Positions 685 through 21,875 of a DNA stretch of 29,320 nucleotides are shown here, one piece after another. Under the pieces are notes generated by a model that had not been told where the DNA came from, did not search any database, and was given only the letters and a program-made list of their open reading frames with translations. The stretch lies in IMG/VR virus record IMGVR_UViG_3300007900_000688, positions 1 through 29,320 of that record. One strand, 5' to 3'. Each line of letters opens with the position of its first letter. Position 1 is the stretch's first letter. The DNA comes from a virus. Position numbers and translations under genes: made by a program.

Positions 685-1950
685 TTACCTACGTCTTCCT
701 TTTCCTTTTCTCCTGGTGTTGTCGTTGGCTCCCTTGACACACAGGAATTGCTTCAAGACAGTCTCGACCTCAACCAGGTCTTTCTCGGCCTCTAGAACAG
801 CCCCGATATCCTTGTACGCTGCCACGCCCTCATCGAGGGTGGCTGCTGACTTATCGCACTCTACCCACTCAAGTGCCTTGGCGTGGTCCTCGATTGAAAT
901 TGTTCGCTTCGCCTGTCCGCGGCTCATGGTACGCCCCGCACCGTGGGAAGCCGAGCAGAACGAATCAACGGCCCCCTTGCCCCTTACGATATAGCTACGA
1001 GAGCCCATCGATCCAGGGATGATGCCGAGGTCAGTCTTACGCGCGCGGATTGCTCCCTTGCGCGTAATTAGTACATTCTTGCCGTAGTGATTTTCCATTG
1101 CAATGTAATTGTGGTGGCAGTTTATATTTTGAGCATCTGTGGGCAGTACGTCTGTGCCGAAAAACTCCTCGAGAAGCACAAACAGGCTGTCCATCATAAG
1201 CTCGCGGTTCCGCGCCGCGAACAGCTGTGCCCACTCCGCGGCCTTCATGTAATTATCGAACTCGGGCTCCCCTTTCGGAAGGAACGCCAAGTCCGGATGC
1301 ACAAGCGCGGAGGCCCACTGACTACACTTCTTCTGGGCCAGCCCGATGAAGAAGGCCCCAAACTTGTTCCCAGGGCCGCGGGAACCGGAATGGATCATGA
1401 GCCAAATACGTCCCTCTGCATCGGTGCACATTTCGATAAAGTGATTTCCGGTGCCCAGCGTTCCGAGATGGTTGACCTCATTGTACGGAACTGCGTCTGG
1501 GTACTCTATGATTACCTCCTGAAAGATTTCCTCCAACTCGTCGCACCATACCTTTTCGACTCGTGGGGGAAGAGCGTTCCTAGGCCATGCGCCACAGTCC
1601 CCAGCACCGCCATTGTGGCTTCTGCCCGTTGGGATGGTCGCCTCGATCTTAGCACGAAGCTCAGAGAGGCTTACGCCAGTTAGGGCGTCCTTAGAAAGGA
1701 GTGTCGGGCAGGCCATCATCCCACACCCGATGTCCACGCCCGTTACGGCAGGATAAGCAGCCCCCATCGTAGCGACGACAGCGCCGATACACGCTCCCTT
1801 ACCTAGGTGTGCGTCCGGCATGAGGGCGACGTGCTTGAATATGTGCGGAGAGTCGGAGATGTTCTTGGCCTGTTCCAGCGCGGAGTCCTCGATGGGAACG
1901 CCGTCGATCCAAGCCTTTACGAGCCCTCGGTCTGCTTTGATAACCTTCAT
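685..1950 (-). CDS. rtcB: RtcB-type RNA ligase (3'-phosphate RNA splicing ligase)
   Basis: A 421-residue protein that can be followed along nearly the whole length of E. coli RtcB (408 aa). RtcB joins RNA ends carrying 2',3'-cyclic or 3'-phosphate to 5'-OH ends, using GTP and Mn2+ through a GMP-histidine intermediate. Visible motifs: PDAHLGKG (45-52), DIGCGM with metal-binding D73 and C76, GTLGTGNHFIE (163-173), HSGSRG with H187, INCHHNY with H280, RKGA, PGSMG (312-316), and SHGAGR with the GMP-accepting H336. The family ends at CVKG; here a basic 14-residue tail is added. The ATG at 1950 is preceded by GGGGCAGAG. No archease or RNA cyclase partner is visible in the window. In a phage this enzyme could reseal tRNAs cut by host anticodon nucleases, as T4 does with its unrelated Pnkp/Rnl1 pair; that role is inferred. 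The family call is near certain. Confidence 0.97.
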   Translation of the reverse strand: MKVIKADRGLVKAWIDGVPIEDSALEQAKNISDSPHIFKHVALMPDAHLGKGACIGAVVATMGAAYPAVTGVDIGCGMMACPTLLSKDALTGVSLSELRAKIEATIPTGRSHNGGAGDCGAWPRNALPPRVEKVWCDELEEIFQEVIIEYPDAVPYNEVNHLGTLGTGNHFIEMCTDAEGRIWLMIHSGSRGPGNKFGAFFIGLAQKKCSQWASALVHPDLAFLPKGEPEFDNYMKAAEWAQLFAARNRELMMDSLFVLLEEFFGTDVLPTDAQNINCHHNYIAMENHYGKNVLITRKGAIRARKTDLGIIPGSMGSRSYIVRGKGAVDSFCSASHGAGRTMSRGQAKRTISIEDHAKALEWVECDKSAATLDEGVAAYKDIGAVLEAEKDLVEVETVLKQFLCVKGANDNTRRKGKGRRR

Positions 1951-2071: not shown

Positions 2072-3340
2072 TTACTGCCCCGCTCCAACTGTGGCGTTGA
2101 GTACATTGCCGATTGGCGCGGACGGAAGGCCGATGGCTATGGCCTTCTGGAAGTCCTCTGCCAACGCGGTGATGTTCATGGACTCGGGCACGTAGTAGAT
2201 CTTCTGGATGCCTGCGCCGAGCGCACCGGCGATCTCCACCTGCGCGAACCGACGACCGCCCTCGCCCAGATAGGCTGCCAGCTTCAGCTTCTTGGCTTCA
2301 GCCTCTGCCTTACCGAGTGCCAACACACCCTGGGCCTCAGCGATCTTACGGAGCTTCAGGCCTTCGCCCTCCAACTCGTCACGGGCCTTCTGGGCTTCGG
2401 CTGCAAGAGTGACCTCGATCTTCTTGGCCTCGGCGGCAAGCTCGACCTTCTTGGCGTCAGCTTCAGCCGCAAGAACCTCTTTCCTGGCTGCTGCTTCTGC
2501 CTGAGCAATCTCCTCGCCCTTCTTAGTCTCGGCCTCTACGAGTCGCCTATTTTGCTCAGCCTTCGCCTCAGCTTCGGCCACCTTCGCCTCAGCATTGGCA
2601 GCTGCCTGTTGTTTCTTGGCCGTCTTTCCACGCTGCTCGGCCTGCGCCTCGGCAGTGATCATGGAAAGGAACTTCGGATCCTTCAACGTTATTTCACGAA
2701 TGACGAGCTTCTCGACCATGATACCATAGGCGTTGAATCGCTCGTCGTCCTGCAGTGAGTTCTCGATAGTCTGCTGCAAACGGACACGGCCGGCGCCTTG
2801 ATAGATTGTCCTAGCGTCGAGAATGGTGGTGTTGTCAATGATGTTCTGGAGCAGGACATCCTTAAGGAAAGTGGTCCGGAACGCGGACGTCTTCTCCTTG
2901 TGCAGCTTCACGAGCTTGCCCGGATCGAGGTGGAACTGCATGACGCAGCGCAGGATAACGGGCGTCGGACCGGTGGTCTTTCCGCTATCCATGTCCTCCA
3001 GCGTAAGGCGCTCCATCATGACCGGGATCTCGACAGGCTGGACGTCGGGTTGATTGAATTCCATCTCGTCGGCGTCCATGTATGTGTTCTTGGGGTTGAC
3101 GGTCTTGTCGTCGATAACGAATGTGTCGGAGCCGATGTAATACTTGTTCGGGGTCGTGGTCCAGCCGAAGTAAAAGTGAAGGCCGTCCTCAGCGATCTGC
3201 TCCCTAACTCCAGAGATGGTCTGCCATACGACCCTCTCGGAGCCCTCGACAGTCGTCCAGCGAAGCGACGTGAACAGCACGACGGCGCCAATTACGAGGC
3301 CGACGATGCCCATAAGCAGTGCGATTTCCTTCTTATTCAT
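2072..3340 (-). CDS. SPFH/prohibitin-like membrane protein
   Basis: A 422-residue protein. Residues 6-25 form one N-terminal transmembrane segment. Residues about 28-220 are a band-7/SPFH-like domain (VEGSERVVWQTISG start, the LVIREITLKDP strand near its end). A long Ala/Glu/Lys-rich coiled coil follows (about 225-345), then a C-terminal part ending in a small-residue tail. This is the architecture of prohibitins, stomatins, flotillins and HflK/HflC, which oligomerise as rings on membranes and organise proteases or lipid domains. The ATG at 3340 has AAAGGAATC upstream. The preceding gene encodes a small membrane protein that could be its partner, as NfeD-type proteins are for other SPFH proteins; that pairing is inference. 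SPFH genes are uncommon in phages. A role in envelope maintenance, lysis timing or exclusion is possible, and none can be shown here. Confidence 0.85.
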   Translation of the reverse strand: MNKKEIALLMGIVGLVIGAVVLFTSLRWTTVEGSERVVWQTISGVREQIAEDGLHFYFGWTTTPNKYYIGSDTFVIDDKTVNPKNTYMDADEMEFNQPDVQPVEIPVMMERLTLEDMDSGKTTGPTPVILRCVMQFHLDPGKLVKLHKEKTSAFRTTFLKDVLLQNIIDNTTILDARTIYQGAGRVRLQQTIENSLQDDERFNAYGIMVEKLVIREITLKDPKFLSMITAEAQAEQRGKTAKKQQAAANAEAKVAEAEAKAEQNRRLVEAETKKGEEIAQAEAAARKEVLAAEADAKKVELAAEAKKIEVTLAAEAQKARDELEGEGLKLRKIAEAQGVLALGKAEAEAKKLKLAAYLGEGGRRFAQVEIAGALGAGIQKIYYVPESMNITALAEDFQKAIAIGLPSAPIGNVLNATVGAGQ

Positions 3341-3390: not shown

Positions 3391-3759
3391 CTATTCTGAA
3401 TCTACGCTCTTGTCTTTCCCGCTCTCTTGATCCTCCTCTCGTTTAGCTTGCTTCTTAGGACTCTCTAGAAAAGCCTTAATTGTAGTCCTCTGTTCCTCGA
3501 ATGTGCCAGTCACCGCGGCGACCATCCACCAACCTGTAAGTGCTGCCAGCAAAAGCCCAGCACAAAGTATGGCGGGGCCTCCAAAGATGCCTGCGATGAT
3601 CAGGCCTCCAGCCAGCAACGGCCAGCCCCCGAGAGGAGCCTTAGCTCTCTTTAGCCGGGATGATCCATAGAGCCAGCCCCACATGACGATCCATGAGACC
3701 GTTGCTATGCTATTCAGTACGATCATCGGAGCATACGGCAGTGTCCAAAACCCGTCCAT
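3391..3759 (-). CDS. Small membrane protein, unrecognised
   Basis: A 122-residue protein. The ATG at 3759 is chosen over one 26 codons upstream because GGAGGGG sits directly before it; it still overlaps the end of the hydrolase gene by 50 bases. Residues 10-31 and 45-85 are strongly hydrophobic (two or three membrane spans, the second block rich in Gly and Leu). The last 35 residues are highly charged (KKQAKREEDQESGKDK) and probably cytoplasmic. I recognise no family. Its place between the MBL-fold hydrolase and the SPFH gene, 50 bases before the latter's start, suggests co-expression and perhaps a membrane complex with the SPFH protein. Confidence 0.7.
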   Translation of the reverse strand: MDGFWTLPYAPMIVLNSIATVSWIVMWGWLYGSSRLKRAKAPLGGWPLLAGGLIIAGIFGGPAILCAGLLLAALTGWWMVAAVTGTFEEQRTTIKAFLESPKKQAKREEDQESGKDKSVDSE

Positions 3760-4615
3760 CGTCCCCTCCTTCACTGCGCTCAAAATCGAAGCTCTGCCCC
3801 TTGACCACGAAGCCCGCGAAGCCGTCCGCTCGCGCATGGGCCTGTGAGACGCGTCTCAGCTGATAGTGCATGAGCCACATCTTCGCCTTGATCTCCTTCG
3901 GCAGCGTGTTGAGATCGTCGTAGTGCGCGTGGACCGTACTCTTATACGGAGCGGTCTCGCAGTCCTGGAAGATCAGGTCGGCCTGAGCATAGAACACTTC
4001 GATCTGCTTCGGGCAGAACTGGGTGTCGCCCGTGAAGAAGATCCTCTTTCCAGGAAGCTCAGTAAACGTTGGTTTCACCAATGTCCTGCCAACGCAGCTA
4101 CTCACCTCGACGGGTCCAGGGAACGCGATCATCAGGCCGTAGCTGTGAGTGATCTTGTAGCCGGAAACGACGTGGACGGTCTGCACTGGCTGGCAGATCG
4201 CGCCGCGCCAACGGAAGTCGTCGTTCGGCCGCACCGGCAGGGGCTCGAAGAAGGTTTCGAGCGTTGCTACCTCTCCCTGGACTGACTCCATACCGCCCCG
4301 CAGCGACTGCCATATCTCGTACATAAGATCGTTGGACGCATGTAGGATGGGCCGCGCCAGACTCGGGTTGAAGTAGGTGCAGAAACCCAGCCACTCCAGT
4401 CCCCCCACATGGTCGGCGTGTAGGTGGCTGATATAGACGCGCTCGATGTCCTTCAGCAGGACATTGATCTCCTTGAGCGAGAATCGCGCGTCACTGCCAC
4501 AGTCGATCAGGAGGTGCTTCGGACCTTCGGACGTAGGGTCGGTCAGCACGGCGTTTGTCTGCCACTGATCCGATCCACAGAATGCGGACCCAACTCCTGC
4601 GAACGTAAGCTTCAT
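3710..4615 (-). CDS. Metallo-beta-lactamase-fold hydrolase (RNase Z / cyclic-nucleotide phosphodiesterase type)
   Basis: A 301-residue protein with the full metal-site set of the RNase Z-like branch of the MBL fold: HLHADH (64-69), H148, D197 in FTGDTQ, the DCET segment (218-221), VHAH (228-231) and H250 in WLMHY. The N-terminus LTFAGVGSAF is the usual first strand. Two-metal enzymes of this branch cleave phosphodiester bonds in tRNA precursors or cyclic nucleotides; phage Apyc1 enzymes that destroy Pycsar signals belong to it. No RNase Z flexible arm with a GP motif is obvious, so tRNA maturation is not assured. The ATG at 4615 overlaps the nadD stop (ATGA) and has GGAGGAG upstream, so translation is probably coupled to nadD. 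The last 25 residues (poor in hydrophobics) overlap the next gene. Fold confident; substrate open. Confidence 0.85.
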   Translation of the reverse strand: MKLTFAGVGSAFCGSDQWQTNAVLTDPTSEGPKHLLIDCGSDARFSLKEINVLLKDIERVYISHLHADHVGGLEWLGFCTYFNPSLARPILHASNDLMYEIWQSLRGGMESVQGEVATLETFFEPLPVRPNDDFRWRGAICQPVQTVHVVSGYKITHSYGLMIAFPGPVEVSSCVGRTLVKPTFTELPGKRIFFTGDTQFCPKQIEVFYAQADLIFQDCETAPYKSTVHAHYDDLNTLPKEIKAKMWLMHYQLRRVSQAHARADGFAGFVVKGQSFDFERSEGGDDGRVLDTAVCSDDRTE

Positions 4616-5277
4616 CTGAAATCTCCTCCGGTTTCTTCCTGTCCCCGCGCCGTACCGTAAAGTCCATTATGATAAATATAGCCCTCAACCGCCGCCGGAA
4701 CAAGCCCAGAAATCGATTCGCCAGCCGCGAGTTGTCTGCGGATCTCCGTCGACGAAACCTCGATGGATTGCGTGAGGCTAATCATGGAGTCGCGGAACTT
4801 ATCGGCAAGGCCCGTGGGCAAGCGTCCAGCAAGATCATCCCAGTCCATGGGATCGTCTCCCACCCGCTCCAACACGACTGGCGTAACATAACTAAAGATC
4901 TCCGATACGTTGCGCCAACGAGGCATGTCGCGTACGGCGTCAGTACCCATCAGTAAAAATAGATCCACAAGGTGACCGAGATCATGTGAGAGCTTTCGCA
5001 CAGTGTCGATGGTGTACGATGTTCCGCCGCGCCGAAGCTCGATACCTGACTCTACAAGCACTTGTCTGTCTCTTGTAGCGAGCCCGACCATCTCAAGGCG
5101 ATGGTTAGCATCGGCGTAGCCGTCCTTCAACGGCTGCAGGTTGGCTGGAATTAGCAACACACGGTCGATCCCTAACCTCTCGCAGGCGCCCTCCGCCGCG
5201 CGTAGATGGCCCTCGTGGATAGGATCGAAGGATCCACCAAATATCCCGAACCGTAGTCGCCCCAGAGGGGATGTCAT
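4612..5277 (-). CDS. nadD: Nicotinate-mononucleotide adenylyltransferase
   Basis: A 221-residue protein of the usual NadD length. It transfers AMP from ATP to nicotinate mononucleotide, giving deamido-NAD and pyrophosphate. Motifs: GGSFDPIHEGH (14-24, the nucleotidyltransferase HxGH signature), TSYTIDTVR (86-94), GTDAV (111-115), SSTEIR (175-180, second ATP-binding signature), and VPAAVEGYI near the end. The TSYTIDT and SSTEIR pattern fits bacterial NadD rather than NadR or NadM. The ATG at 5277 has GGAGAGCC upstream and lies 15 bases after the pncB stop. The 3' end overlaps the hydrolase start. It is the third step of the pathway completed by pncA, pncB and nadE in this operon. Confidence 0.96.
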   Translation of the reverse strand: MTSPLGRLRFGIFGGSFDPIHEGHLRAAEGACERLGIDRVLLIPANLQPLKDGYADANHRLEMVGLATRDRQVLVESGIELRRGGTSYTIDTVRKLSHDLGHLVDLFLLMGTDAVRDMPRWRNVSEIFSYVTPVVLERVGDDPMDWDDLAGRLPTGLADKFRDSMISLTQSIEVSSTEIRRQLAAGESISGLVPAAVEGYIYHNGLYGTARGQEETGGDFR

Positions 5278-5292
5278 GAGGCTCTCCTACTT

Positions 5293-6447
5293 CTAGTATC
5301 CAAATGTCCATCTGGCGACTTCGATGGCTTTCTTGTCACCCATCGCCTTACCTGGATCCTCACTGAGCTTCACAACATCGATGCCGTTAATTTGACGCAG
5401 CTTGATTACGATATTGAGGGGCTGGACTTTCGGGATATCGTTCGAGAAGTGCGTCCCTATCCCAAAGGAGCAGCCAATGCCCAGATCGACGCAGTGTAGC
5501 TTGATCCGCAGGGCGCGGCTAACGGTGAGCCCGTCGCTGAAAACGATGGTCTTCGTAGCAGGGTCCACCCCAACGCTGTTGTAGTGGCGTACGGCTCGGG
5601 TCGCAAACCCAAGGGGGTCGCCGCTGTCATGGCGAATGCCATCGAACAAGCGCGAAAGTCCTGGGTCGAAGTCCCGGAAGAAAGCCTCAACCCCGTAGGT
5701 ATCGGTCAGGGCAATTCCCAGCCTTCCACCATAGACCTCGTTCCAGGCCTCCATAGCATACTTGTTGGCGTATCGCAGCCCCCGAAGGGCGCTAATGGCC
5801 ATGATCAGTTCGTGTGCCATTGTCCCAACGAGGCCCAGCCTAAGTATCTTGGCAAGGTAGATATTGCTGGTGCCGACGAACGAAGTTTTCCCGCCCTCCG
5901 CCAGCCCCGAGGTAACAACCCGCTGGTTCTCAAAGCTGAATCGACGGCGTGTGCCGAATTCCGCAAAGCCGCATCCCGCCTCGTCTAGCCGTTGTCCTTT
6001 GGCCACGGCCTTCTTATGAGCGCCCTTGGGAACCTCGGGGGCTTGCCCCCACAAAGCCAGCTCCGAGATCAGCGCCAGGAGGGGAACCTCCCAATAGATG
6101 GCTTTGCACCATGGCCCCGACACCGTAAGCTTCAAACGCCCGTTCGAGACGCGAAAATCCACCATGTCCGTCTCGAACCGAAAGTCTTTGAGCCAGGTAA
6201 GATACCAATCATCCAGATAGGGACAGTTCTCCTTTAGCCAAAAATACTCCTCGTTGCTAAGGCGAAGCGAGGCCAGATCAGCGAGCTGCTCGGTAAGGCC
6301 GCGCACCAGCGTTTTTGAGAATTTTCTGGCGGGGTCGCGGTTGGTGAACTCATACACAACAGAAGCATTGGGAGCAAGCTTGAGGACAGCTTGTCCTTGC
6401 GTGAGCTTGTAAAGATCATTGTCAAGTATTGATTTGATAATACTCAT
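5293..6447 (-). CDS. pncB: Nicotinate phosphoribosyltransferase
   Basis: A 384-residue protein that aligns along most of E. coli PncB (400 aa). It makes nicotinate mononucleotide from nicotinate and PRPP, with ATP hydrolysis. Landmarks: LDNDLYKLTQGQAV (8-21), SGPW (110-113), FGTRRRFSFENQ (164-175), GTSN (192-195), GTMAHE with H212 at the place of the autophosphorylated histidine, LTDTY (248-252), RHDSGDP (272-278), SDGL (304-307), SFGIGT (327-332) and the IVIKL strand. These fit NAPRT rather than NAMPT (the NadV type), so it should prefer nicotinic acid, which the neighbouring nicotinamidase would supply. The ATG at 6447 overlaps the upstream small gene's TGA (ATGA) and has GAGGGAG as ribosome binding site, implying coupling. 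Confidence 0.96.
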   Translation of the reverse strand: MSIIKSILDNDLYKLTQGQAVLKLAPNASVVYEFTNRDPARKFSKTLVRGLTEQLADLASLRLSNEEYFWLKENCPYLDDWYLTWLKDFRFETDMVDFRVSNGRLKLTVSGPWCKAIYWEVPLLALISELALWGQAPEVPKGAHKKAVAKGQRLDEAGCGFAEFGTRRRFSFENQRVVTSGLAEGGKTSFVGTSNIYLAKILRLGLVGTMAHELIMAISALRGLRYANKYAMEAWNEVYGGRLGIALTDTYGVEAFFRDFDPGLSRLFDGIRHDSGDPLGFATRAVRHYNSVGVDPATKTIVFSDGLTVSRALRIKLHCVDLGIGCSFGIGTHFSNDIPKVQPLNIVIKLRQINGIDVVKLSEDPGKAMGDKKAIEVARWTFGY

Positions 6448-6647
6448 CGTGTTTCTCCCTCTGTGACGGAACTCGTAGAGCTAAGCCGTACGCATCGCCA
6501 CCCTTTGTGGTGAGCACGCTCACCGTTGGCTACCTTGACCATGTTTGGAGGGCTCAGACTATGCTGCTCACAAAATAGGGATAGCCCCTCTGTTGTGGTA
6601 TACACCTCTCCTCTGGGAGATATGACCTGAAATAACTTAGTGCCCAT
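6444..6647 (-). CDS. 67-aa protein resembling a homing-endonuclease-associated DNA-binding module
   Basis: The frame continues upstream, but the ATG at 6647 is the sensible start: it overlaps the end of the preceding gene by only 11 bases, whereas upstream codons would be read out of frame through that gene's lysine-rich tail. The ribosome binding site is weak, so coupling is likely. Residues 5-50 follow the pattern FQVISPRGEVY...LSLFCEQHSLS..NM.KV..GER.HHKGWR. This resembles the small helix-turn-helix modules (NUMOD-like, ending in HKGW) found beside HNH and GIY-YIG homing endonucleases and free-standing in T4-like phages. No nuclease domain is present. It may be a remnant or a stand-alone DNA-binding protein. 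The stop overlaps the pncB start. Confidence 0.65.
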   Translation of the reverse strand: MGTKLFQVISPRGEVYTTTEGLSLFCEQHSLSPPNMVKVANGERAHHKGWRCVRLSSTSSVTEGETR

Positions 6648-7692
6648 CAGGATTTTCTTTTGCCCTTCTTGGCCTTCTTGCCTTCTTGGCCTTCTTAGCT
6701 TTCTTGAAGAATTTAGCCTGCTCGGCGTTGTACGCCTCGTCCTCCTGCCGCCGCCTGATCTTTGACGTGACCACGCAGTACTGCCCATCATCATAATTTT
6801 GCTGCCCACGCTCGTCGTATTCCACCTTCAGCGCCCGGCATCGCGCGAGAGCCTTCTTTACTTTGGCTATGCTGATCTGGTCGGTTTTCTTCGCTTTCTT
6901 GTTGTGCTTCTGGAGCATCTCGAGCAGCTCTTTATGCTGGTGCTCGTAGTGGTATGAGCGCCCCACCAGGGTCAAGGTAATCAGCAGACGCTTTTCGGGT
7001 GGAAGCTTATCCTTCCCCTGGACTTCAGCCCAAAGTCTGCCCAACTCTTCAACGGGTATGCCGCGGTCGTTGCGTATATCGTGATGAAGATTATGCTGTC
7101 TCCACCACGTCGATACGAAGTCCACGTCCAGATAAGGAAGTGCCTTCTTGATCAGCTGGTTACGGTAGTGCGCCTCAAGAAAGCTCTCGTTGCCCGACAT
7201 CTGTCTATAGCATTCCCCATGGATCCGAGCAAACAGGTCGGCCAGAGGGCTGACCGCCTTGGCAAACTCATCATTGGGGTAGCGATTTATGTAATAGAAT
7301 CCGGCCTCTACTGCAGCATAAACCTGTATTACCAGAGAGGTTCGTAGCCCGCTATATCCTCCATCAGCTATTTTATCGATTGTGGGGGTATATCTGTAAA
7401 GATACTCAACTATCCCATCATCGAACCTCTCGGCCTCTTCGGGCTCTACCCCCTCCTGGAGAGCGACACCCCAGAGGCTCTTCCCGTCGATGTATTCGCT
7501 ATTGAGAGCTGAGCCGGTCAGCCAGAAAGAGGCCGACCCGGACCGGGAAAGGAGCGCGGGCCACAGCTCGTCTACCAGCTGTGCTAGCTTGCTGTCGTGC
7601 AGCATAGTCTTGTGGAGCTGGTCAGAAAGTTCCGTGAGTTCGTTAACAACTCTAACGGCCCCCTCGAACCTCTCTTCGTCGCATAGTCCCAT
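6637..7692 (-). CDS. Unrecognised 351-aa protein inside the NAD operon, Lys-rich tail
   Basis: I do not recognise a family. The start is placed at the ATG at 7692 (MGLCDEERFEG), 5 bases after GGAGG; the frame is open further upstream but would run into pncA in an unnatural composition. The protein is mostly predicted helical and soluble, with conspicuous aromatic stretches (YLYRYTPTIDKI, EAGFYYINRYP, STWWRQHNLHHD). From about residue 245 it is charged, and it ends in a run of KKAKKAKKARRPRR that could bind nucleic acid. No catalytic signature stands out. It sits between pncA and pncB, so it is presumably expressed with the pathway, but nothing in it suggests an NAD enzyme. A possible promoter and a hairpin lie in the 76 bases before it. 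Confidence 0.75.
   Translation of the reverse strand: MGLCDEERFEGAVRVVNELTELSDQLHKTMLHDSKLAQLVDELWPALLSRSGSASFWLTGSALNSEYIDGKSLWGVALQEGVEPEEAERFDDGIVEYLYRYTPTIDKIADGGYSGLRTSLVIQVYAAVEAGFYYINRYPNDEFAKAVSPLADLFARIHGECYRQMSGNESFLEAHYRNQLIKKALPYLDVDFVSTWWRQHNLHHDIRNDRGIPVEELGRLWAEVQGKDKLPPEKRLLITLTLVGRSYHYEHQHKELLEMLQKHNKKAKKTDQISIAKVKKALARCRALKVEYDERGQQNYDDGQYCVVTSKIRRRQEDEAYNAEQAKFFKKAKKAKKARRPRRAKENPDGH
6655..6715. repeat. Low-complexity tract coding the Lys/Ala-rich C-terminus
   Basis: On the plus strand the region is built of imperfect cttctt/ggccttctt units. On the coding strand they give repeated Lys-Lys-Ala triplets. It is a simple-sequence expansion within the 351-aa protein and may vary in copy number. 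Confidence 0.6.
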
Positions 7693-7712
7693 CGTATCCT
7701 CCAGTAATCCGG

Positions 7713-7732
7713 CGCCTCTACATATAGAGGCG
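7713..7732 (-). promoter_or_regulatory. Hairpin (8-bp stem, 4-base loop) before the 351-aa gene
   Basis: CGCCTCTA (7713-7720) pairs perfectly with TAGAGGCG (7725-7732) around the loop CATA. It lies between the pncA stop and the ribosome binding site of the next gene and has no U tract. Its core CCTCTATATGTAGAGG closely resembles the core of the 22-bp palindrome at 10054-10075 (CCTCTATATAGAGG), so both may be the same kind of control element, either an operator or an RNA hairpin. Confidence 0.5.
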
Positions 7733-7752
7733 TCAAACCTCAGGCCTGTCAA
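7715..7752 (-). promoter_or_regulatory. Candidate sigma70-like promoter before the 351-aa gene
   Basis: TTGACA (7752-7747), a perfect -35 consensus, is followed after 18 bases by TCTATATG, a partial -10, and then TAGAGG (7720-7715). The layout matches the candidate at 10094-10058. The spacing is somewhat long for sigma70. It would allow the 351-aa gene, pncB, nadD and later genes to be transcribed independently of nadE and pncA. Confidence 0.4.
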
Positions 7753-7768
7753 CCCACATTCCAGATTT

Positions 7769-8404
7769 TTACGGGCATGAGAAATGGCAGCTATGGTCCA
7801 GCTCGACCCCCATGGCCAACATCTCGCAGATTGCGGCCTCTGTCCCAGGAGGGGCGCCAACACCCCTGCATGCATCGAGCACGACCGTAGTGTGAATCTC
7901 GTGGTCGTATGCATCGAGGGCCGTAGCCTTAACACAGAAATCAGTGGCAAGACCACAAATATCGACTGAGGGGAACACCCCTAGGCTATCCGTAATCAGG
8001 GGGAGAAGGGGCGTCTCGCTGCCGTTGGCGTCCTTGAATCCCGAGTAGCTGTCATACTCAGGATCCATCCCCTTCTTTATGATAGTGAAGGGCTCTGGAA
8101 TCTCGAGACCGTCGGCCAGCTTGTGTCCTTCCGTGCCCTCTACGCAGTGATCCGGCCAAAGAACCTGGGTGATCCCATTAAGCTCAATTACGTCGAGCGG
8201 GTTCTTGCCTTCGTGATTCGATGCAAAGCTCTTGTGATTCTGGGGGTGGCTATCCATCGTCACGAAAATTGGGTTTCCATCGTCGGCATACACCTTAGCC
8301 AGCCGATTGACCACTGCGACAACCTCATCTCCTCCCGGAACGGCCAGATTTCCACCGGGAAGGAAGTCCTTCTGAACATCGACAATGATCAGTGCTCGCT
8401 TCAT
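7769..8404 (-). CDS. pncA: Nicotinamidase
   Basis: A 211-residue isochorismatase-fold hydrolase, full length for PncA, which deaminates nicotinamide to nicotinic acid and ammonia. The catalytic triad is visible: D9 in IIVDVQKDF, K111 in IIKKGMDPEYDSYSGF, and nucleophile C157 in GLATDFCVKATALDA. Metal ligands fit D51 and H53 (TMDSHP) and H86 in LWPDHCVEGTEG. These motifs separate nicotinamidase from other family members. The ATG at 8404 has AGGAGAG 5 bases upstream, 25 bases after nadE. Nicotinamide is the product of most NAD+-cleaving defence enzymes, so this gene sets the entry point of the pathway. The released ammonia could be used by the ammonia-dependent NadE next to it, though the amounts in the cell make this speculative. 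Confidence 0.96.
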   Translation of the reverse strand: MKRALIIVDVQKDFLPGGNLAVPGGDEVVAVVNRLAKVYADDGNPIFVTMDSHPQNHKSFASNHEGKNPLDVIELNGITQVLWPDHCVEGTEGHKLADGLEIPEPFTIIKKGMDPEYDSYSGFKDANGSETPLLPLITDSLGVFPSVDICGLATDFCVKATALDAYDHEIHTTVVLDACRGVGAPPGTEAAICEMLAMGVELDHSCHFSCP

Positions 8405-8429
8405 TTGTCTCTCCTATCTAACAAAGCCC

Positions 8430-9230
8430 TTACTCGCCTGCTCCCACCAAGAACGGCGGAATTGTACACACAGGCGGCACATGTCGTTTATGCTCGCTAC
8501 GCTTATACAAAAGATCGGCCGCGCGCTGAGCCTCGGTTGCGTCATCCGGCAGCCCATCTGACGCGAGGTTAGCGGCTACGGCCTCATCAAGCTCGGCATA
8601 AGGCATACCAAGCTCGTCCTCGTCTGTCTGGCCTTTCCACAAATCGGCGCTGGGCGGCTTTGTTATGACTCGCTCGGGAAGCTCCAAGAACTTGGCCATG
8701 TTCCATACGTCTGTCTTATAGAGATCCCCAATCGGCTCCAGATCAACTCCTCCGTCGCCGTACTTCGTGCAGTACCCGGTCATGATCTCAGTCAGGTTGC
8801 CCGTGCCGAGGACAAGATAATTGAACATATTGGCATAGATATACAGCATCACCATCCGTAGCCGAGACTTCAGATTTCCACGAACAAGATTGGATCCCTT
8901 CGGATCTGCCCAGGTCATGTTCTCGATATTGATCCTGCCGTTGAACACAGCGAAATGGTCGGCCATATCAACAAGCCGGTATCTGATGCCCAGCTTTCTG
9001 GCGACGGAGATGGCATCTTCCATATCTTCAGGGTTCGACTCACATGGCAGGATAAGCCCAAAGACAGCGTCTTTTCCCAAGGCCCGAGTGGCGAGAGCAG
9101 CAACAACCGCGGAGTCAACGCCACCGCTGAGCCCGATAACTCCGCCCGCGGTTCCAGACAGCTTTACCTTATCTTTGAGCCACCCTCCAATGATGTTTGC
9201 AACAGCCTCCATATCCTTAAGCTTGCGCAT
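8430..9230 (-). CDS. nadE: Ammonia-dependent NAD+ synthetase
   Basis: A 266-residue N-type ATP pyrophosphatase, the length of ammonia-dependent NadE; the glutaminase domain of eukaryote-type enzymes is absent. It amidates deamido-NAD to NAD+ with ATP and NH3. Motifs: LSGGVDSA (34-41, pyrophosphate loop), GTGNLTEIMTGYCTKYGDGG (142-161), PIGDLYKTDV (166-175) and GQTDEDELGMPY (200-211), all typical of NadE. The ATG at 9230 has GGGGGGAG upstream, 12 bases after the preceding stop. It is the last step of the pathway but the first of its four genes to be transcribed. Confidence 0.96.
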   Translation of the reverse strand: MRKLKDMEAVANIIGGWLKDKVKLSGTAGGVIGLSGGVDSAVVAALATRALGKDAVFGLILPCESNPEDMEDAISVARKLGIRYRLVDMADHFAVFNGRINIENMTWADPKGSNLVRGNLKSRLRMVMLYIYANMFNYLVLGTGNLTEIMTGYCTKYGDGGVDLEPIGDLYKTDVWNMAKFLELPERVITKPPSADLWKGQTDEDELGMPYAELDEAVAANLASDGLPDDATEAQRAADLLYKRSEHKRHVPPVCTIPPFLVGAGE

Positions 9231-9242: not shown

Positions 9243-10046
9243 CTAGGCCCAATACACATACAGCATTGGGCGAAGCTGCAGCACGGTACGCCTCTTACGA
9301 AACAAATTTAGAAATTCGCAGATTAGTTTCACCCCATCCGGAACTTCTGGGATGATATTCTGGTATGCCTCCCGAATATTCTTGAAGCCCATTTGCTTCA
9401 CGATTTTTCGTAAGAGTTTATCTTTCAGCTTATCGGGCCTGGCATAATCATTGAACTTCGAGATCAGATAGTCAATGTGCCATACAAATGCTGTGACGTC
9501 CTCGTGCTTTCTGCAATAGCCTAACCTACGCCCCGTACGCGCATCTAGCCAGCCTGAGTAGGGATATACTGGTCCCCAGCGATATACCTCCCATCGAGTC
9601 ATCTGCTCACGATGGGCCGTCTCCTCTATGTAATCAATCGCATCATCATGGCGAGACCAACCTTCCGCTACCATTGAATACTCTGGTGGAACGATTACCA
9701 TTACCTCTGATTTACCAAACTCAGGTTCATGATGCACGCAGTTGATAGGAAGCCAAGAAGGACGGCGCCGAGGGCCTTCCTGATTCTCCAACCACCGAAG
9801 CATGAGATGAACATGGGCACTCATGAAGCACGCACGCTTGCCCAGTGCATCATGTTTCGCCCGTAGAAATTGCTTCCAGGCCTTTACGCCAAAACGGCCG
9901 TTATCGTCCCAGGCCTCATCCCCGTCCCCCCCGGCCAACAACGCGCAGTTGCGCTTGAACCGAGGATCCGTGAGCTTCCAACGTGCCCCATCATAGACGA
10001 CGTCAGTTAGACCATAACCCAGAACTTTGTGAACACGGATGCCCAT
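9243..10046 (-). CDS. Unrecognised 267-aa protein, first gene of the accessory operon
   Basis: The ATG at 10046 (MGIRVHKVLGYGLTDV) is preferred because GGAGG lies 7 bases upstream; the frame can be extended to a TTG at 10094, but that crosses a palindrome and has no binding site. The protein is rich in Trp, Tyr, Arg and His with no membrane segment. N-terminal residues 1-90 contain a GYGLTD element and a DEAWDD acidic patch. The middle has VHHEPEFGKSEVMVIVPPEYS and WRVYRWGPVYPYSGWLDA-like aromatic segments, and the C-terminus is basic (KDKLLRKIVKQMGFKN). I cannot assign a function. It is followed 12 bases later by nadE, so it is probably co-transcribed. Its start is embedded in a terminator-like palindrome, which makes its expression unusual. 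Confidence 0.75.
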   Translation of the reverse strand: MGIRVHKVLGYGLTDVVYDGARWKLTDPRFKRNCALLAGGDGDEAWDDNGRFGVKAWKQFLRAKHDALGKRACFMSAHVHLMLRWLENQEGPRRRPSWLPINCVHHEPEFGKSEVMVIVPPEYSMVAEGWSRHDDAIDYIEETAHREQMTRWEVYRWGPVYPYSGWLDARTGRRLGYCRKHEDVTAFVWHIDYLISKFNDYARPDKLKDKLLRKIVKQMGFKNIREAYQNIIPEVPDGVKLICEFLNLFRKRRTVLQLRPMLYVYWA

Positions 10047-13617: not shown

Positions 13618-16158
13618 CTACGGACCCTCAACCCTGATCACATACCGAGTATCGACGGGCGCAAATTCGCTCATCACGCGAGCGATGCGCTCCGTATCCT
13701 CAGATGTTATTTCTTCGTCGCCAGTCAGAATAAACCAGAGACGAAGAATCTCAAAAGAATATAAAGCTGCTTCAGCAGTTACTCTACCATAGCTATCGAA
13801 TGTTGGCAACTCCCAAGAATGTCCCGCCCCACTATCGGCCCAGTCGTAAATCGATTCGTCTATGACAGTGGTCCACACTACAGGGCCATCATTGAACGTT
13901 GTGCCGATCCCCGCAGCGGGCGGATTACCTGTCCTCCAGGTCACAGTTCCGTCCGTAACGGTGTCGTCCAAGTTAGCCGGCCATGTAGGCTCAGTGCCTC
14001 CAGAAGTCCCAGCAGCCGTACATACATAGGCCCAGCCATTTACAGAGGTCGGTACAATTACGTCTCCTACTGAATATGTAGTAATGGCCCAGGCCGGAAC
14101 CCACTGCGGCTCCGTTCCCCCAGATGTTCCGGCTGTGGTGCACTCAAAGACGCGCCCCAGCGCCCCAAAAGTATCGGAGGGAGCTATGACTGCTCCCAAA
14201 ATGTAAGGGGCGCCAGTTTCCCACTTTCCAGCAAATACTACTGACTGTTTGGCCGCCCTATTCGAAACCAGAACGTGCTTTGCCATGGGATCAACATTAA
14301 CATTTGCCACGTCAACCGCAGATCGTAGGGCTCTCTCAAGGCCAGACTCGGTGCCACTCTGACGATGAACGGCAACGGCATTGCGAATCGTTGCGCGCTG
14401 GGCATCAACAGGAAGGGTACCATCAATTGTTACGCCCAGTACTGAGGCCAGCCTAGGTAGATATTTGGGAGGGCACTCATCGGGATTGATGAGCTGGGCC
14501 ATAAAGTCTATGGCCCCCTTGATCCTCGATGCAACGGACCCAAATATCATTAAGAAGCGTTCTAGCTGGCCCCGCTCAACGGCGCCATCCTCATGATAAG
14601 CACGGCGCTCTCCATCATCGTCGGAATCTGTCTCTACAGTCAAAGCTACCTGATCAGTTTCGGCGTCCTTGCTTCGATAGAGAGACGGGAGCAAGCCGAA
14701 AAGGACGTGAGTCATATACTCTGAATCCCAGGTAAAGTCTGATGCCCTCGAAGTTATGCCTCCGGTCTCCCAGCCTGGGTTGATGTTCTTGGTCTCCCAG
14801 ACTACGGTATCGTCATCGATGGTGTCCCCAATAGTGGTGGGCCACGTAGGCTCACCTGAATCCGATGTCCCCGCAGTAGTACACTCGTAAAAATAGCCGT
14901 TTGGAATAATCGGAATTATCCTATCCCCGACAACGTACGATGTGGTATCAGCCCAGGGTACGGTGCACGTATACTTAGTGAAGCCTTGGTAACACCAAAT
15001 AACGTTAGTGAGAATTCCGTAGTCCACAACAGATGTTTTAGTCATAGTGGTATCGTGCAAAACCTCGCTACCATCTGTATAGTCTGTGGGATATGTGTAC
15101 CTTCTTTTCCTGATCTTGAGTTCGGATGCGCCGGGGTCTATTGGCAAATCCCAAGTCACAACTATTTGCGGGCCTTCGATTCCAGGGCGGGTTGCGAAGT
15201 TAGTCAGCTGCCCCGTGAATGGCGTCGGAACATACGTGAAGGCATTCGGAAGCGTTGCATATTCTGAGTTCGGATTCGTCACTACGACATCGACCACACC
15301 GGCACCTGCTGGAGTCACACAATCAATTCGTGTGGAACTGACAACAACCACACTTGTCGCAGGATTTCCACCAAAGGTTACGGTAGCACCATCAACGAAA
15401 TCAGTACCTGTAAGAGATACTGGTGTGCTCCCCAAAGTCGAACCCACGGCCGGATTCACAGCAAGCAGCCTAAGTGCTTCATATGCTACCGTAGGAGGAG
15501 TGAAGTTGGCTGTCCACCTAGCATCACCTTTTGAAACACGAAACTCGTCAATCCAACCGGCGGGTAGATTCGCAACGGCACCAAGGGCTGGGCTGTTACC
15601 AATCCTGAATTCACCTGCCCAGTCGGGATATGGAAACGCTTGGACATACGTGTCTCGGAGGACACCATCTACAAACATACGATATGTATCACCGCTATGT
15701 GTTATCGCACAGTGATACAGGGTGTAAGGTGTCGGTTCCCAACTACTGTAGAACAGAGTGATTAGCCCGCCGCCATTCCTGACCACCTGAAAAACCAACT
15801 GGTGACTGCTGCCACCGCCATCTTGCCAATAGCAATGCGTATAGTTCTGGTAGTCCTGATATTGTGAGAAAAGGGCTTTGTTTCCCAGGTTGTTCGGAAG
15901 ACGAAAACGGAAATCAATTGCGGAGTCAACATCAAGTTGCCAGTCGGCATGATCGGCGGCCCAAAGGTAACCACTGCCATCGAACTCTACTGAACCAGTA
16001 CCAAAACCAAAGACTTTCCATGCGGTGTCAACCTGAGTATTACCGGTAGCTGTGATCACATGGGTTGGCGGGCTGAATGAGTCGTCAGGGAAAACCTGGG
16101 AACCATCTACCCCATCGCAGTGAAGGAGAAGCTTAGTATATGCGTCATTGCCTGGCAT
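13618..16158 (-). CDS. gpI-like baseplate protein fused to LamG, TIG, FN3 and carbohydrate-binding-like domains
   Basis: An 846-residue mosaic. Residues 1-228: LamG/concanavalin-like domain (LLLHCDG start, GSVEFDGSGYL, RMFVDGV, WIDEFRVSKG). Residues 229-310: IPT/TIG domain (VNPAVGSTLGSTPVSLTGTDF). Residues 318-395: fibronectin-III-like. Residues 400-455: a repeat of pattern Y.VGD.I.P...GY.YECTTAGTS..GEPTWP....T..D.TV.W. Residues 485-630: P2 gpI-like core (LFGLLPSLYR, FLMIFGSVASRIKGAIDF, YLPRLASVLG, IRNAVAVHRQSGTESGLERALRS). Residues 645-742: two more copies of the repeat. The end returns to the gpI fold (EILRLWFILTG to VIRVEGP). gpI links the wedge to fibres. It follows the gpJ-like gene, the usual order. 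The added modules probably bind glycans. Confidence 0.85.
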   Translation of the reverse strand: MPGNDAYTKLLLHCDGVDGSQVFPDDSFSPPTHVITATGNTQVDTAWKVFGFGTGSVEFDGSGYLWAADHADWQLDVDSAIDFRFRLPNNLGNKALFSQYQDYQNYTHCYWQDGGGSSHQLVFQVVRNGGGLITLFYSSWEPTPYTLYHCAITHSGDTYRMFVDGVLRDTYVQAFPYPDWAGEFRIGNSPALGAVANLPAGWIDEFRVSKGDARWTANFTPPTVAYEALRLLAVNPAVGSTLGSTPVSLTGTDFVDGATVTFGGNPATSVVVVSSTRIDCVTPAGAGVVDVVVTNPNSEYATLPNAFTYVPTPFTGQLTNFATRPGIEGPQIVVTWDLPIDPGASELKIRKRRYTYPTDYTDGSEVLHDTTMTKTSVVDYGILTNVIWCYQGFTKYTCTVPWADTTSYVVGDRIIPIIPNGYFYECTTAGTSDSGEPTWPTTIGDTIDDDTVVWETKNINPGWETGGITSRASDFTWDSEYMTHVLFGLLPSLYRSKDAETDQVALTVETDSDDDGERRAYHEDGAVERGQLERFLMIFGSVASRIKGAIDFMAQLINPDECPPKYLPRLASVLGVTIDGTLPVDAQRATIRNAVAVHRQSGTESGLERALRSAVDVANVNVDPMAKHVLVSNRAAKQSVVFAGKWETGAPYILGAVIAPSDTFGALGRVFECTTAGTSGGTEPQWVPAWAITTYSVGDVIVPTSVNGWAYVCTAAGTSGGTEPTWPANLDDTVTDGTVTWRTGNPPAAGIGTTFNDGPVVWTTVIDESIYDWADSGAGHSWELPTFDSYGRVTAEAALYSFEILRLWFILTGDEEITSEDTERIARVMSEFAPVDTRYVIRVEGP

Positions 16159-16194
16159 CGACTACCCGCTTTCTAGCATAGTGCTCACAAGTAC

Positions 16195-18144
16195 CTAGGA
16201 TACCAATTCATACTCAAGCGTAACCGTTCCCTGCCTGCGGACTTCGTAGTCCTCAATTTCGGCGTTACTGATATATTGAGATGTTCTGAATGTTCCTAGA
16301 TCCCCTATTCGCATATCGACTCCCGCGTCTATTTTAATTTTCAAAGACCCGTCGGACAGCGTATATTCAGCGTCTAGATTAGCGCCCGATAGTAACGTAG
16401 AGCCGGCAGCGTTGACAACCTTATATTCCGCTGATATCACATCTCCGCCCACTGTGAACTCAACGGACAGCTCCTGATCGACTAGATTAAGCGAGTTCTG
16501 AGGCGTTATATAATCTACCGTCGCTCCGTCTACGGGAGCAGAAATCCAATCAAAGGTTGTGACGGGATCCAGGGTCAACGTGGTAATGTCGACGTGGTCA
16601 ACCCCCTCTAGATTATCTATAAGGGCCATGATGTCCGACAGATTGACGTTCTTCCCGAACTTAGCGAGATCGCTGTCTACGCTGAAAAAATCACTGAGCG
16701 CTGTTGTAACCAGGGGCGCCACCTGGCTTTCAGAGTACCCAGATAGGAAATATACTTTCGCTGTCAGACTTATATCGACTACGTGGCGTGGCCCCTGAAC
16801 ATAGACTGTCATTCCAGCAACGTCTCGCGCAGCCAGGTAGGCCTGAACTTGATCTATCAGCGCCTGGGCTGGCACGTATCCTCCAGAGGGGAGCATATAT
16901 ACATCGATCTCCCGTAGCACGGCCGGCGGTCGGACTACGGCCTTGGCCTCCTCTACGCCCGCGACCTCGAGCGACAATGTTTCGTAGTCGTCTTCAGTAA
17001 CGGCCCGGCCCAGCGCCCTGAGGGAGCGGGGACCGAAGAACTTCGCATCCTCCAGAGACATCTCCTCGGCTCCCCCTGAGGCGGAGAGGGGGTTTGTGGC
17101 TGTTATGGCGACTGGGGCTCCGCCGAAGACGAGCGTAGAGATTAGGCTGGTTATCTTGCTCGCACCAACATTTCCCTGAGTGCCACCCCCAACTCTGTAG
17201 GTAGATGATATGGTGGACGCAATAGTCGGAATCGCGCCCGTTACGCCATCCCCGAACCTAGCATAGACAAAGCCAGCAGAGTCCCGAGATAGCTCGTACA
17301 CCTTATCTGTAGGATCAGAAGTAGCTAAGTTTTCAATTTCGGCCCACTGTGTAGGGACGGCCCCAACAGTAACCGTAATCTCAACGGACCCCTCTGCTAC
17401 GGGAGTTTGAGTAAGCTGAAAAAGCTGCCAGTCACTTCCGTCGCTGGTCCCAATATCCTCTGCTTGGGTTTGGCCTTGCTGTACCCCAACAGTGGCCTGG
17501 GTTGCGGATATCCGGGCGTTTGCCCCCGTTGTGTACGACCCGGAAATTCCGGCAACGAGGCTAATGGTGGTTGAGTCGGGGAGAGCGGCTATCTCCCCAC
17601 TCTCACCAGCTGGAGTGGAATCGTCGCGGATGTTTATTAGCTGGCCTACCTGAAAATCCGATGAATCTCCTACTATTATATCGGTATCGGGCGTACTAGC
17701 ATCGCTAGTCAGCGCTTGCCAAGCGAATTCCAAGTCGGCCAAAGTCTCGAACGTGACTGGCGTGGTGCCTGTTTCCCCAGTAGTGGACAGCTGGGTGTTC
17801 TCGGGAACAATGAAGTCCCCAGAAAGGGGGGAAACCAAAGTGAAGACCTCGTCGGCAATGGCGGCCGACTTCCCTGGAACTTCATAGTCGATCAGCTTAA
17901 GTATGTTCACTACGGACTCACGGGTAAAACAGGTGGTCAAGTACAGATTTTGGGCTCTTCGGTCAACGTAGAAATGAAGTATGTCCCCCATGTATGCGAA
18001 CAGCTCAATGAGAGTTATCCCAAAATCGCTGGCATTTCGATCTGTCCATTCAGGATTGAAGAACTGAATCTGGTCCATCAGATCCTGCCGGATAGATTCA
18101 AAGTCGCGGCTAAGATAATCTATCGATGGAATGCGCGTAGCCAC
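16195..18144 (-). CDS. Baseplate wedge protein, gpJ/gp47 type
   Basis: A 649-residue protein with the baseplate_J arrangement: N-terminus IDYLSRDFESIRQDL, then FGITLIELFAYMGDILHFYVDRRAQNLYL (about 62-90), a beta-rich middle with FARFGDGV-like and PTIASTISSTYRVGGGTQGNV segments, then the conserved ARSLRALGRAVTEDDYE-type helix (GPRSLRALGRAVTEDDYETL) and VYVQGPRHVVDISL. It forms the wedge ring around the hub with the gp25- and gpI-like proteins. The start codon is GTG at 18144, chosen because GGAGG lies 6 bases upstream and the gp25-like stop is two bases away. C-terminal residues 540-649 form an extra beta-rich domain beyond the core. Confidence 0.9.
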   Translation of the reverse strand: MATRIPSIDYLSRDFESIRQDLMDQIQFFNPEWTDRNASDFGITLIELFAYMGDILHFYVDRRAQNLYLTTCFTRESVVNILKLIDYEVPGKSAAIADEVFTLVSPLSGDFIVPENTQLSTTGETGTTPVTFETLADLEFAWQALTSDASTPDTDIIVGDSSDFQVGQLINIRDDSTPAGESGEIAALPDSTTISLVAGISGSYTTGANARISATQATVGVQQGQTQAEDIGTSDGSDWQLFQLTQTPVAEGSVEITVTVGAVPTQWAEIENLATSDPTDKVYELSRDSAGFVYARFGDGVTGAIPTIASTISSTYRVGGGTQGNVGASKITSLISTLVFGGAPVAITATNPLSASGGAEEMSLEDAKFFGPRSLRALGRAVTEDDYETLSLEVAGVEEAKAVVRPPAVLREIDVYMLPSGGYVPAQALIDQVQAYLAARDVAGMTVYVQGPRHVVDISLTAKVYFLSGYSESQVAPLVTTALSDFFSVDSDLAKFGKNVNLSDIMALIDNLEGVDHVDITTLTLDPVTTFDWISAPVDGATVDYITPQNSLNLVDQELSVEFTVGGDVISAEYKVVNAAGSTLLSGANLDAEYTLSDGSLKIKIDAGVDMRIGDLGTFRTSQYISNAEIEDYEVRRQGTVTLEYELVS

Positions 18145-18146
18145 GA

Positions 18147-18578
18147 TTAGCCTCCCGTCTCAGATTGAGTAAATAGATACACCATATTTCCCTCTTGATG
18201 GGAACGAAGAATTGTATACCCAATAAGGGCCTCTGTCACGCCTTTATTGGGCTGACTAGTAAAAGATATCTTATCAAAAGTAACCTGCTTTTCCCACCTA
18301 CTTAGTGCCTCGCCTATTTCAGTGGAAAGTTCTGACTCTGCTTGAGGCTGAGGCAAAAACAGTTTGGCGTGGATGCCCGAGCCGAACTCGCGCCGAATAA
18401 CTCGATCTCCCAGACGGGTACCGATTACTTGGCTCATTCTATCTTGTGTGTGCGCCTCAGCATAGCTAGTTACGACGCTCCCAGTAGACTCCGAGAAGCG
18501 GAAGGGGAAGGCTATTCCAACGCCCAACGCCCCCGCAGCCTGAGCCTCATCACTGGGCCTAGAAAAAATGCTAGACAT
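18147..18578 (-). CDS. Baseplate wedge protein, gp25/gpW type
   Basis: A 143-residue member of the GPW/gp25 family, close to the usual length. Characteristic features are IGTRLGDRVIRREFGSGIHAKLFLPQP (52-78), followed by EIGEALSRWEKQVTF and a closing strand pair (GVTEALIGYTILRSHQEGNMVYLF). It nucleates sheath assembly at the baseplate in contractile systems. The ATG at 18578 is two bases from the preceding stop, with GGGGGA upstream. The gpJ-like partner follows immediately. Confidence 0.92.
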   Translation of the reverse strand: MSSIFSRPSDEAQAAGALGVGIAFPFRFSESTGSVVTSYAEAHTQDRMSQVIGTRLGDRVIRREFGSGIHAKLFLPQPQAESELSTEIGEALSRWEKQVTFDKISFTSQPNKGVTEALIGYTILRSHQEGNMVYLFTQSETGG

Positions 18579-18580
18579 GA

Positions 18581-19030
18581 TTATCCCCCAGTCGTCGCCT
18601 GTTCTGGAAAGAGCCTCATCATGATTTCGTTGCCTATTTGCCGACCCTCTTCGAGCATCTGACGTTCACGAATAAGCTGATGCTTAACCTTTAGTTCCCC
18701 GTTTGGTCGCGTCTCCGCTATCTTGACCCTAAGAAAGTCCAGTCGGTTGGACAGCTCCATCTGCAGTAGTTTAAGCTCTAGATCGGGCTCCTGTCCAGTC
18801 AAAAATTTATCTAATAGTCGAAGGAGATTCTCCAAACGCATCTTTTCGCTTGTCAGGGCCTCTCTTTTCTGATTTACCTGGTTAATCTCCACGATGATAT
18901 CTGAGATCTCCTCTTCGATCTCATCTAGGCGTAGTTTCGCCAGCCCCTGCATCATTTCCTGGGCCGCAAAGATAAGCTCGTCCCGATCTGAGCTATTCAA
19001 TGAGGTAGCGAAATCTTCCAATGAAGCCAT
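18581..19030 (-). CDS. Coiled-coil protein of the baseplate cluster, unrecognised
   Basis: A 149-residue, highly charged, almost wholly helical protein. Residues 30-110 have heptad-like spacing (LRLDEIEEEISDIIVEINQV, MRLENLLRLLDKFL, LELKLLQMELSNRLDFLRV). No enzymatic motif or membrane segment is seen. The ATG at 19030 is 9 bases after the preceding stop, with AGGA some distance upstream. It sits between the HxHT protein and the gp25-like gene, so it is probably a structural or assembly component of the baseplate. No family was recognised. Confidence 0.75.
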   Translation of the reverse strand: MASLEDFATSLNSSDRDELIFAAQEMMQGLAKLRLDEIEEEISDIIVEINQVNQKREALTSEKMRLENLLRLLDKFLTGQEPDLELKLLQMELSNRLDFLRVKIAETRPNGELKVKHQLIRERQMLEEGRQIGNEIMMRLFPEQATTGG

Positions 19031-19039
19031 AGCAAAATC

Positions 19040-20373: not shown

Positions 20374-20386
20374 AAGAGTACGCTCC

Positions 20387-21598: not shown

Positions 21599-21602
21599 GT
21601 TC

Positions 21603-21875
21603 CTAGAACGGCAGATCCAATGCTGTCCCAGATGGGATATCCAGGGACCACTCTAGCTCATTAGCTTCGGCAATAGCCCACCAATTCCGCGCTCTGTGGG
21701 CGTACCTAAAAGCCAGAAAGTCGAGGGTTTGTTTGTCCTCAACCGTTACAGTAAGCCTCGTGGGCACTTCAAGAGGTACGCGCAAGTGCATAAAATTCTT
21801 TAGTGTCAGTCCCTCATCGGACGAGGTAACAGTGTAGGCTAGGCCCTCATATCTGCTTCCTGCAAAAATAGCCAT
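21603..21875 (-). CDS. LysM-type tail protein
   Basis: A 90-residue protein. The ATG at 21875 follows the preceding TAA by one base with TTGGGGGA upstream; a longer start inside the previous gene is unlikely. Residues 45-90 form a LysM fold (VEDKQTLDFLAFRYAHRARNWWAIAEANELEWSLDIPSGTALDLP), with the usual YG-like first helix and the final P.G..L.(L/I)P strand. In contractile tails a LysM domain often follows the tube-initiation protein and bridges to the hub. Here it is a separate gene rather than fused as in Afp7-type proteins. Confidence 0.85.
   Translation of the reverse strand: MAIFAGSRYEGLAYTVTSSDEGLTLKNFMHLRVPLEVPTRLTVTVEDKQTLDFLAFRYAHRARNWWAIAEANELEWSLDIPSGTALDLPF

Follow-up and report, generated by a model that had tools for sequence, protein, structure and literature searches.

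NADase defences leave nicotinamide together with ADP-ribose or cyclic forms. Two routes by which phages rebuild nicotinamide adenine dinucleotide (NAD+) are already known as counter-defence, and both keep the amide. One of them, NARP2, is the name for the NadV + NadM-type pathway. NARP1 (Adps and Namat) is a phage-borne means of rebuilding NAD+ from NADase products, in which ADP-ribose pyrophosphate and nicotinamide are converted to NAD+ in two steps (PMC12774641, PMC13232231), and the NadV and NadM enzymes of the KVP40 type salvage nicotinamide with phosphoribosyl pyrophosphate (PRPP), using two enzymes and a nicotinamide mononucleotide (NMN) intermediate without deamidation (PMC7824862, PMC9503650). 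Replenishment of NAD+ is accepted as a phage counter-defence (PMC11984713, PMC12774641). Here we describe the IMG/VR virus record IMGVR_UViG_3300007900_000688, analysed over its entire length of 29,320 bp (the window), which carries pncA, pncB, nadD, and nadE genes whose products are predicted to follow the deamidating Preiss-Handler route. Bacterial Preiss-Handler salvage uses the same enzymes and chemistry, but the genes are rarely clustered at the closest cellular pncB loci.

The four genes are intact on the minus strand between positions 4612 and 9230, exactly where the initial annotation had placed them, and every active-site residue that it named (D9, K111, and C157 in PncA; H212 in PncB; HEGH and SSTEIR in NadD; SGGVDS in NadE) was found in the window proteins. 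A ribosome-binding site resembling a Shine-Dalgarno (SD) sequence lies ahead of each NAD gene, the gaps are short, and some adjacent genes overlap. The genes and their predicted products are as follows.

8430..9230, minus strand: nadE, ammonia-dependent NAD+ synthetase, 266 aa, SGGVDS motif (PF02540, NF010587), SD sequence GGGGGGAG
7769..8404, minus strand: pncA, nicotinamidase, 211 aa, with D9, K111, and C157 and metal ligands D51, H53, and H86 (PF00857, PRK11609, 2wt9)
5293..6447, minus strand: pncB, nicotinate phosphoribosyltransferase (NAPRT), 384 aa, H212 (TIGR01514, NF003704, solved relatives)
4612..5277, minus strand: nadD, nicotinate-mononucleotide adenylyltransferase, 221 aa, HEGH and SSTEIR (TIGR00482; best solved relatives NadD)

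Curated NCBIfam equivalog cut-offs were passed by three of the four enzymes (NadE, PncB, and NadD). PncB scored 392.9 against the NAPRTase model TIGR01514 (cut-off 269.6), was above the cut-off of NF003704, and had solved relatives that were exclusively NAPRTs; NadD scored 151 against TIGR00482 (cut-off 112.5), with the HxGH and SSTxIR motifs in place. NadE matched PF02540 (255.6 bits), passed TIGR00552, and scored 282.5 against the NAD+ synthase model NF010587 (cut-off 255), a family-level result, with nicotinate adenine dinucleotide (NaAD) as the predicted substrate. PncA matched PF00857 (81.8 bits) and scored 169.3 against the nicotinamidase model PRK11609, about 5 under the cut-off of 174, yet it is assigned as a nicotinamidase because its best solved relative is nicotinamidase 2wt9 (E 1e-42) and because the D-K-C triad and the metal site (D51, H53, H86) are complete. 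Across viral homologues (33 of PncA, 47 of PncB, 12 of NadD, and 104 of NadE), the core catalytic residues were fully or almost fully kept and the outer letters of the NadD motifs were variable: the PncA residues were retained in 32-33 of 33 sequences (C157 in all 33), and H212 of PncB (47/47), H24 and R180 of NadD (12/12), and SGG together with D39/S40 of NadE (104/104) were invariant. The ratio of nonsynonymous to synonymous substitution rates (dN/dS) was 0.05-0.10 for PncA, PncB, and NadE in the closest pair of loci (L003/L023); purifying selection acts on the module genes in the pairs tested.

These enzyme families convert nicotinamide to nicotinate, nicotinate mononucleotide (NaMN), NaAD, and finally NAD+, and the route consumes PRPP and ATP. 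In the proposed pathway, PncA would release nicotinate and ammonia from nicotinamide, PncB would combine nicotinate with PRPP to give NaMN, NadD would adenylate NaMN to NaAD, and NadE would amidate NaAD with ammonia to NAD+. The ammonia from the PncA step could feed the NadE amidation, a recycling that we infer, and the set would be amide-neutral because PncA frees as much ammonia as NadE uses. The phage would in this way keep or regain NAD+ when host NADase defences, infection itself, or both drain the pool. We conclude that the cluster is a phage deamidating (Preiss-Handler) NAD+ salvage operon, most likely adding NAD+-making capacity during infection (probability about 0.82). The sequences show the genes themselves, their families and catalytic residues, the layout of the operon, and its recurrence and selection in phages; the predicted deamidating four-step chemistry, which was also the initial proposal, is well supported by the family assignments and active sites, whereas we infer the pathway flux and the role in vivo.

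The contrast drawn earlier with the chemistry of NARP1 and NARP2 is sound. The window set deamidates, unlike NARP1 or the NadV + NadM pair. With regard to NARP1, general scans of proteins in the window turned up no phosphoribosyltransferase-type enzyme besides the NAPRT, with no Adps or Namat model run. Its phosphoribosyltransferase is NAPRT rather than NadV by NCBIfam equivalog, and the match to the phage NadV family phrog_448 was weak (5e-13).

The four-gene set is not unique to this record, contrary to what had been implied: Bacillus phage G and Sinorhizobium phage Phosso both carry it in public sequences, and complete or incomplete sets are frequent among environmental phage contigs. In phage G, genes for an isochorismatase/nicotinamidase-family protein, NAPRT, NaMN adenylyltransferase, and NAD synthetase (gp275, gp277, gp281, and gp283) occupy about 6 kb of one strand, but they differ from the window in gene order, show 25-33% protein identity, and are interspersed with genes of unknown function; a Nudix gene (gp273) is also present. 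In Phosso all four steps fall within 6 kb (gp368, gp369, gp370, gp375, and gp377), but the adenylyltransferase is annotated as NMN-type and is only 21% identical to that of the window, and a Nudix gene lies inside the cluster. The phage G genes are annotated publicly one by one, and no pathway paper on them was found in the literature searched. Two surveys, of jumbo phages and of viral NAD systems, cover only NadV, NadM, and NadR salvage (PMC7824862, PMC9503650); by text search, nicotinamidase, NadD, and NadE are absent from PMC9503650, and NadD and NadE from PMC7824862. The authors on Atu_ph07 mention NadR and PnuC, and those on Rheinheimera phages discuss pncB together with prs (PMC6715854). 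No paper on a phage pncA-pncB-nadD-nadE set was found in a literature search made without most subscription papers. Because the gene-level annotation of phage G is already public, the four-gene set is a variant of phage NAD+ reconstitution and not a discovery from nothing.

To survey related loci, IMG/VR was scanned with a PncB alignment and, separately, with a NadE alignment; scans for close relatives with the window PncB, baseplate J, and a family-less open reading frame (ORF) returned nothing, and the alignment-based scans were required. Loci at the ends of IMG/VR prophages (about L051-L090) were left out as likely host flank, and the matches to Acinetobacter phage MD-2021a as likely bacterial contigs. 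Full clusters were found in about eight further lineages: phage G, Phosso, MT835470 with its fragment MT839920, L013/L014, L021, L026, L038, and L047/L048. All four genes are also present in LR756501 and Atu_ph07, scattered over the genome. A terminase scored above its family cut-off on several records, including L014, L031, L049, phage G, Phosso, Atu_ph07, and LR756501. Among 43 metagenomic viral loci anchored on PncB, four enzymes fell within 6 kb in 7, three in 15, two in 14, and one in 7, compared with 0, 1, 4, and 75, respectively, among the 80 closest cellular pncB loci. At least three enzymes within 6 kb were thus seen in 22/43 viral versus 1/80 cellular loci, which is to be read as a contrast and not as a precise rate, because viral sequences were used to train the profiles applied to cellular loci, so that cellular clustering may be undercounted, and some viral loci are near-duplicates. 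The NAD gene set, whole or partial, is common: it occurs in many phages that are unrelated to one another, some of them cultured, yet it is little described.

The NadD frame of L013/L014 (∼14149-14667) contains in-frame TAG codons, which suggests that a TAG-recoded phage carries the NAD set. NadE frames of 560-680 aa in L016, L022, L042, and Atu_ph07 suggest that glutamine-dependent synthetases replace the ammonia-dependent form in some phages. A Myxococcota contig from a metagenome-assembled genome (L190:5117-7754) has nadE, pncB, and pncA together; this may be an uncommon cellular cluster or a phage fragment caught in the binning.

The two limits on the viral-cellular contrast weigh against the salvage-operon reading, and so do the following points. 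In a thinned set of 47 loci (a few of which came via NadE or were picked from named phages), NadE lay near PncB in 35, PncA in 32, and NadD in 12, so that most relatives are without NadD near pncB and the full set is the exception. Such relatives would depend on the host enzyme, which may serve in its place, or on an adenylyltransferase encoded elsewhere; a nucleotidyltransferase of the NadD superfamily occurs on 25 of 44 records. Most bacteria own these four enzymes already, and the gain may be one of capacity only. Finally, the cut-off of the Apyc1 family, to which the gene following nadD belongs, was passed in only 4 of 45 phage records.

The viral origin of the cluster was assessed from PncB and from composition. 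Viral sequences are the closest to the window PncB (L011, 50% identity; L015, 46%); both group with the window in the PncB tree with support of 97, and both have nadE, pncA, and pncB in its order. Cellular labels are strongly clustered on this tree, requiring 5 changes compared with a mean of 40.6 after shuffling. The window PncB falls outside the Bacteroidota/Halomonadaceae clade in which most sampled cellular sequences reside, and Methanosarcinaceae supply the nearest cellular sequences. In tetranucleotide profile, the segment that holds most of the NAD genes correlated at 0.47 and 0.64 with the two final tail segments, values that lie inside or exceed the range of tail segments among themselves (0.21-0.55). 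In view of the viral PncB clade, the shared gene order in viral contigs, and the tetranucleotide profile, a chimera appears unlikely.

Nearly all plausible genes of the record have minus-strand orientation. Starting at the right end, the order is tail sheath, two tail tubes, a T4-type baseplate protein, tape measure, hub, spike, gp25, baseplate J, a P2-I-like tail protein, and probable fibres, followed by an M50-like ORF (below its family cut-off), a 267-aa ORF, nadE, pncA, a 351-aa ORF, a 67-aa homing-endonuclease-like ORF, pncB, nadD, and the Apyc1-family hydrolase; a small membrane-protein-like ORF, a band-7 protein, RtcB, and the edge of an Ig-domain protein complete the left end. The sheath and baseplate J are ∼29-34% identical to their best phage matches among the matches listed, and the 29,320-bp record yielded neither a head gene nor a terminase. 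The features outside the four NAD genes are as follows.

13618..29318, minus strand: contractile-tail gene cluster (P2-I-like, baseplate J, gp25, spike, hub, tape measure, two tubes, sheath)
9243..10046, minus strand: ORF of 267 aa immediately upstream of nadE, no family match
6637..7692, minus strand: orphan ORF of 351 aa with its own SD sequence, no match
6444..6647, minus strand: ORF of 67 aa, like part of phage homing endonucleases (phmmer)
3710..4615, minus strand: Apyc1-family metallo-hydrolase, 301 aa (PF23023; 7u2r/7u2s)
2072..3340, minus strand: band-7/SPFH protein (PF01145)
685..1950, minus strand: RtcB-type RNA ligase (PF01139, 351 bits; phrog_1075)

The initial annotation had overlooked the two ORFs between pncA and pncB and the Apyc1-family gene after nadD. 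This last gene overlaps nadD by 4 bp, and its product scored 66.2 bits against PF23023 (cut-off 50), carries the HxHxDH motif as HLHADH, and has Apyc1 (7u2r/7u2s) as its best solved relatives, with similarity along both halves. None of 14 control genomes reached the PF23023 cut-off, and 4 of 45 phage records did. Among phages, the relatives of this protein come from those infecting Bacillus-group hosts and from one Staphylococcus phage. The product is, by sequence, an Apyc1-family hydrolase, from a family of known anti-Pycsar counter-defence; hydrolysis of cCMP and cUMP is only predicted. Among the loci compared, such a gene directly adjoins NAD genes only in the window, and phage G has one elsewhere in its genome. 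The 351-aa ORF within the operon, with a C-terminus rich in lysine and arginine, had no match in Pfam, NCBIfam, PHROG, PADLOC, or PDB and no relative among the phages or viral contigs searched, and the PADLOC search gave no match. By phmmer, the 67-aa ORF matches ORFs of L017, L029, and L043 that lie just upstream of pncB, and the one in L017 is a phrog_314 homing endonuclease. Homing-endonuclease-like ORFs thus recur just upstream of phage pncB (L017:2427-3188, L029:9241-9930, L043:9212-9952), and the window retains only a 67-aa piece. The family-less ORFs were searched with 2-19 extra N-terminal residues, and the 67-aa ORF as a 66-aa version minus its first residue. Single-sequence folds of two family-less ORFs were too poor for use (predicted local distance difference test scores of 37 and 41), the fold of the 267-aa ORF being uninformative. 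RtcB lies near NAD genes in about eight loci, in line with RNA repair as a feature of large phages (PMC7824862). Positions 1-663, at the left end of the record, encode a truncated protein with tandem Ig-like domains and a lipoprotein-like N-terminus.

One rival explanation, to which we give a little less than even odds, is that counter-defence is the main purpose: NAD+ would be rebuilt after cleavage by TIR/SIR2/SEFIR-type NADases, by a chemistry that would be the third after those of NARP1 and NARP2. The predicted starting compound, nicotinamide, is the NADase cleavage product, the clustered module recurs in phages, and NAD+ replenishment has literature precedent as counter-defence (PMC11984713, PMC12774641). 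The anti-Pycsar family gene next in the window provides new circumstantial support for a plausible anti-NADase role, and phage G has a gene of this family elsewhere in its genome; however, the Apyc1 linkage does not recur, ADP-ribose (the other cleavage product) would not be reused, and PRPP must be supplied. About as likely is metabolic support, with no defence target, for the high NAD(P) demand of large-phage replication (NAD-dependent ligase, ribonucleotide reduction, ADP-ribosylation). Genes of nucleotide metabolism, such as ribonucleotide reductase, lie near NAD genes in one family of related loci, and similar reasoning has been applied to pncB of Rheinheimera phages (PMC6715854) and to Erythrobacter phage L02 (PMC9127768). 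This explanation leaves the adjacency to the Apyc1-family gene unaccounted for, and NAD+ is usually made by the hosts themselves.

Pycsar includes TIR effectors that degrade NAD+, and a joint Apyc1 and NAD operon would make sense for that reason; the Apyc1-family neighbor may work in the same counter-defence programme. The broadest version, which we consider doubtful, is a widespread third NAD+ reconstitution pathway by deamidation and re-amidation with its own ammonia, here co-transcribed with an Apyc1-type enzyme, such that one operon would both remove the cyclic-nucleotide trigger and repair the NAD+ loss caused by TIR NADases.

Two other alternatives concern the cluster itself. NadE could be an NMN synthetase of the Francisella type, with NaMN amidated to NMN and adenylated afterwards; 3fiu, presumably the Francisella tularensis enzyme, is its second-best solved relative (156 bits). 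This is quite improbable, since the best solved relative, 2e18, which we take to be Pyrococcus NadE, scores higher (194 bits), NadE passes both NAD+ synthase models (NF010587 and TIGR00552), and the adenylyltransferase belongs to the NadD family and not to NadM. Least probable of all is that the left half is host DNA introduced by assembly error, as had been raised at the outset, or that the record represents a tailocin or an injection system instead of a phage, for although the left side has a higher GC content and the head and terminase genes were not found, PncB belongs to a viral clade, other viral contigs have the same gene order, the NAD segment matches the two final tail segments in tetranucleotide profile as closely as the tail segments match one another, a homing-endonuclease piece is present, and the tape measure and baseplate are of phage type.

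If the salvage-operon reading is correct, a third route with four enzymes, present across divergent phages (phage G and Phosso among the cultured ones), would extend the counter-defence repertoire beyond the two amide-keeping routes. The scattered pncA, pncB, nadD, and nadE genes of large phages would be explained as one module, and the cultured carriers make its role directly testable by gene removal.

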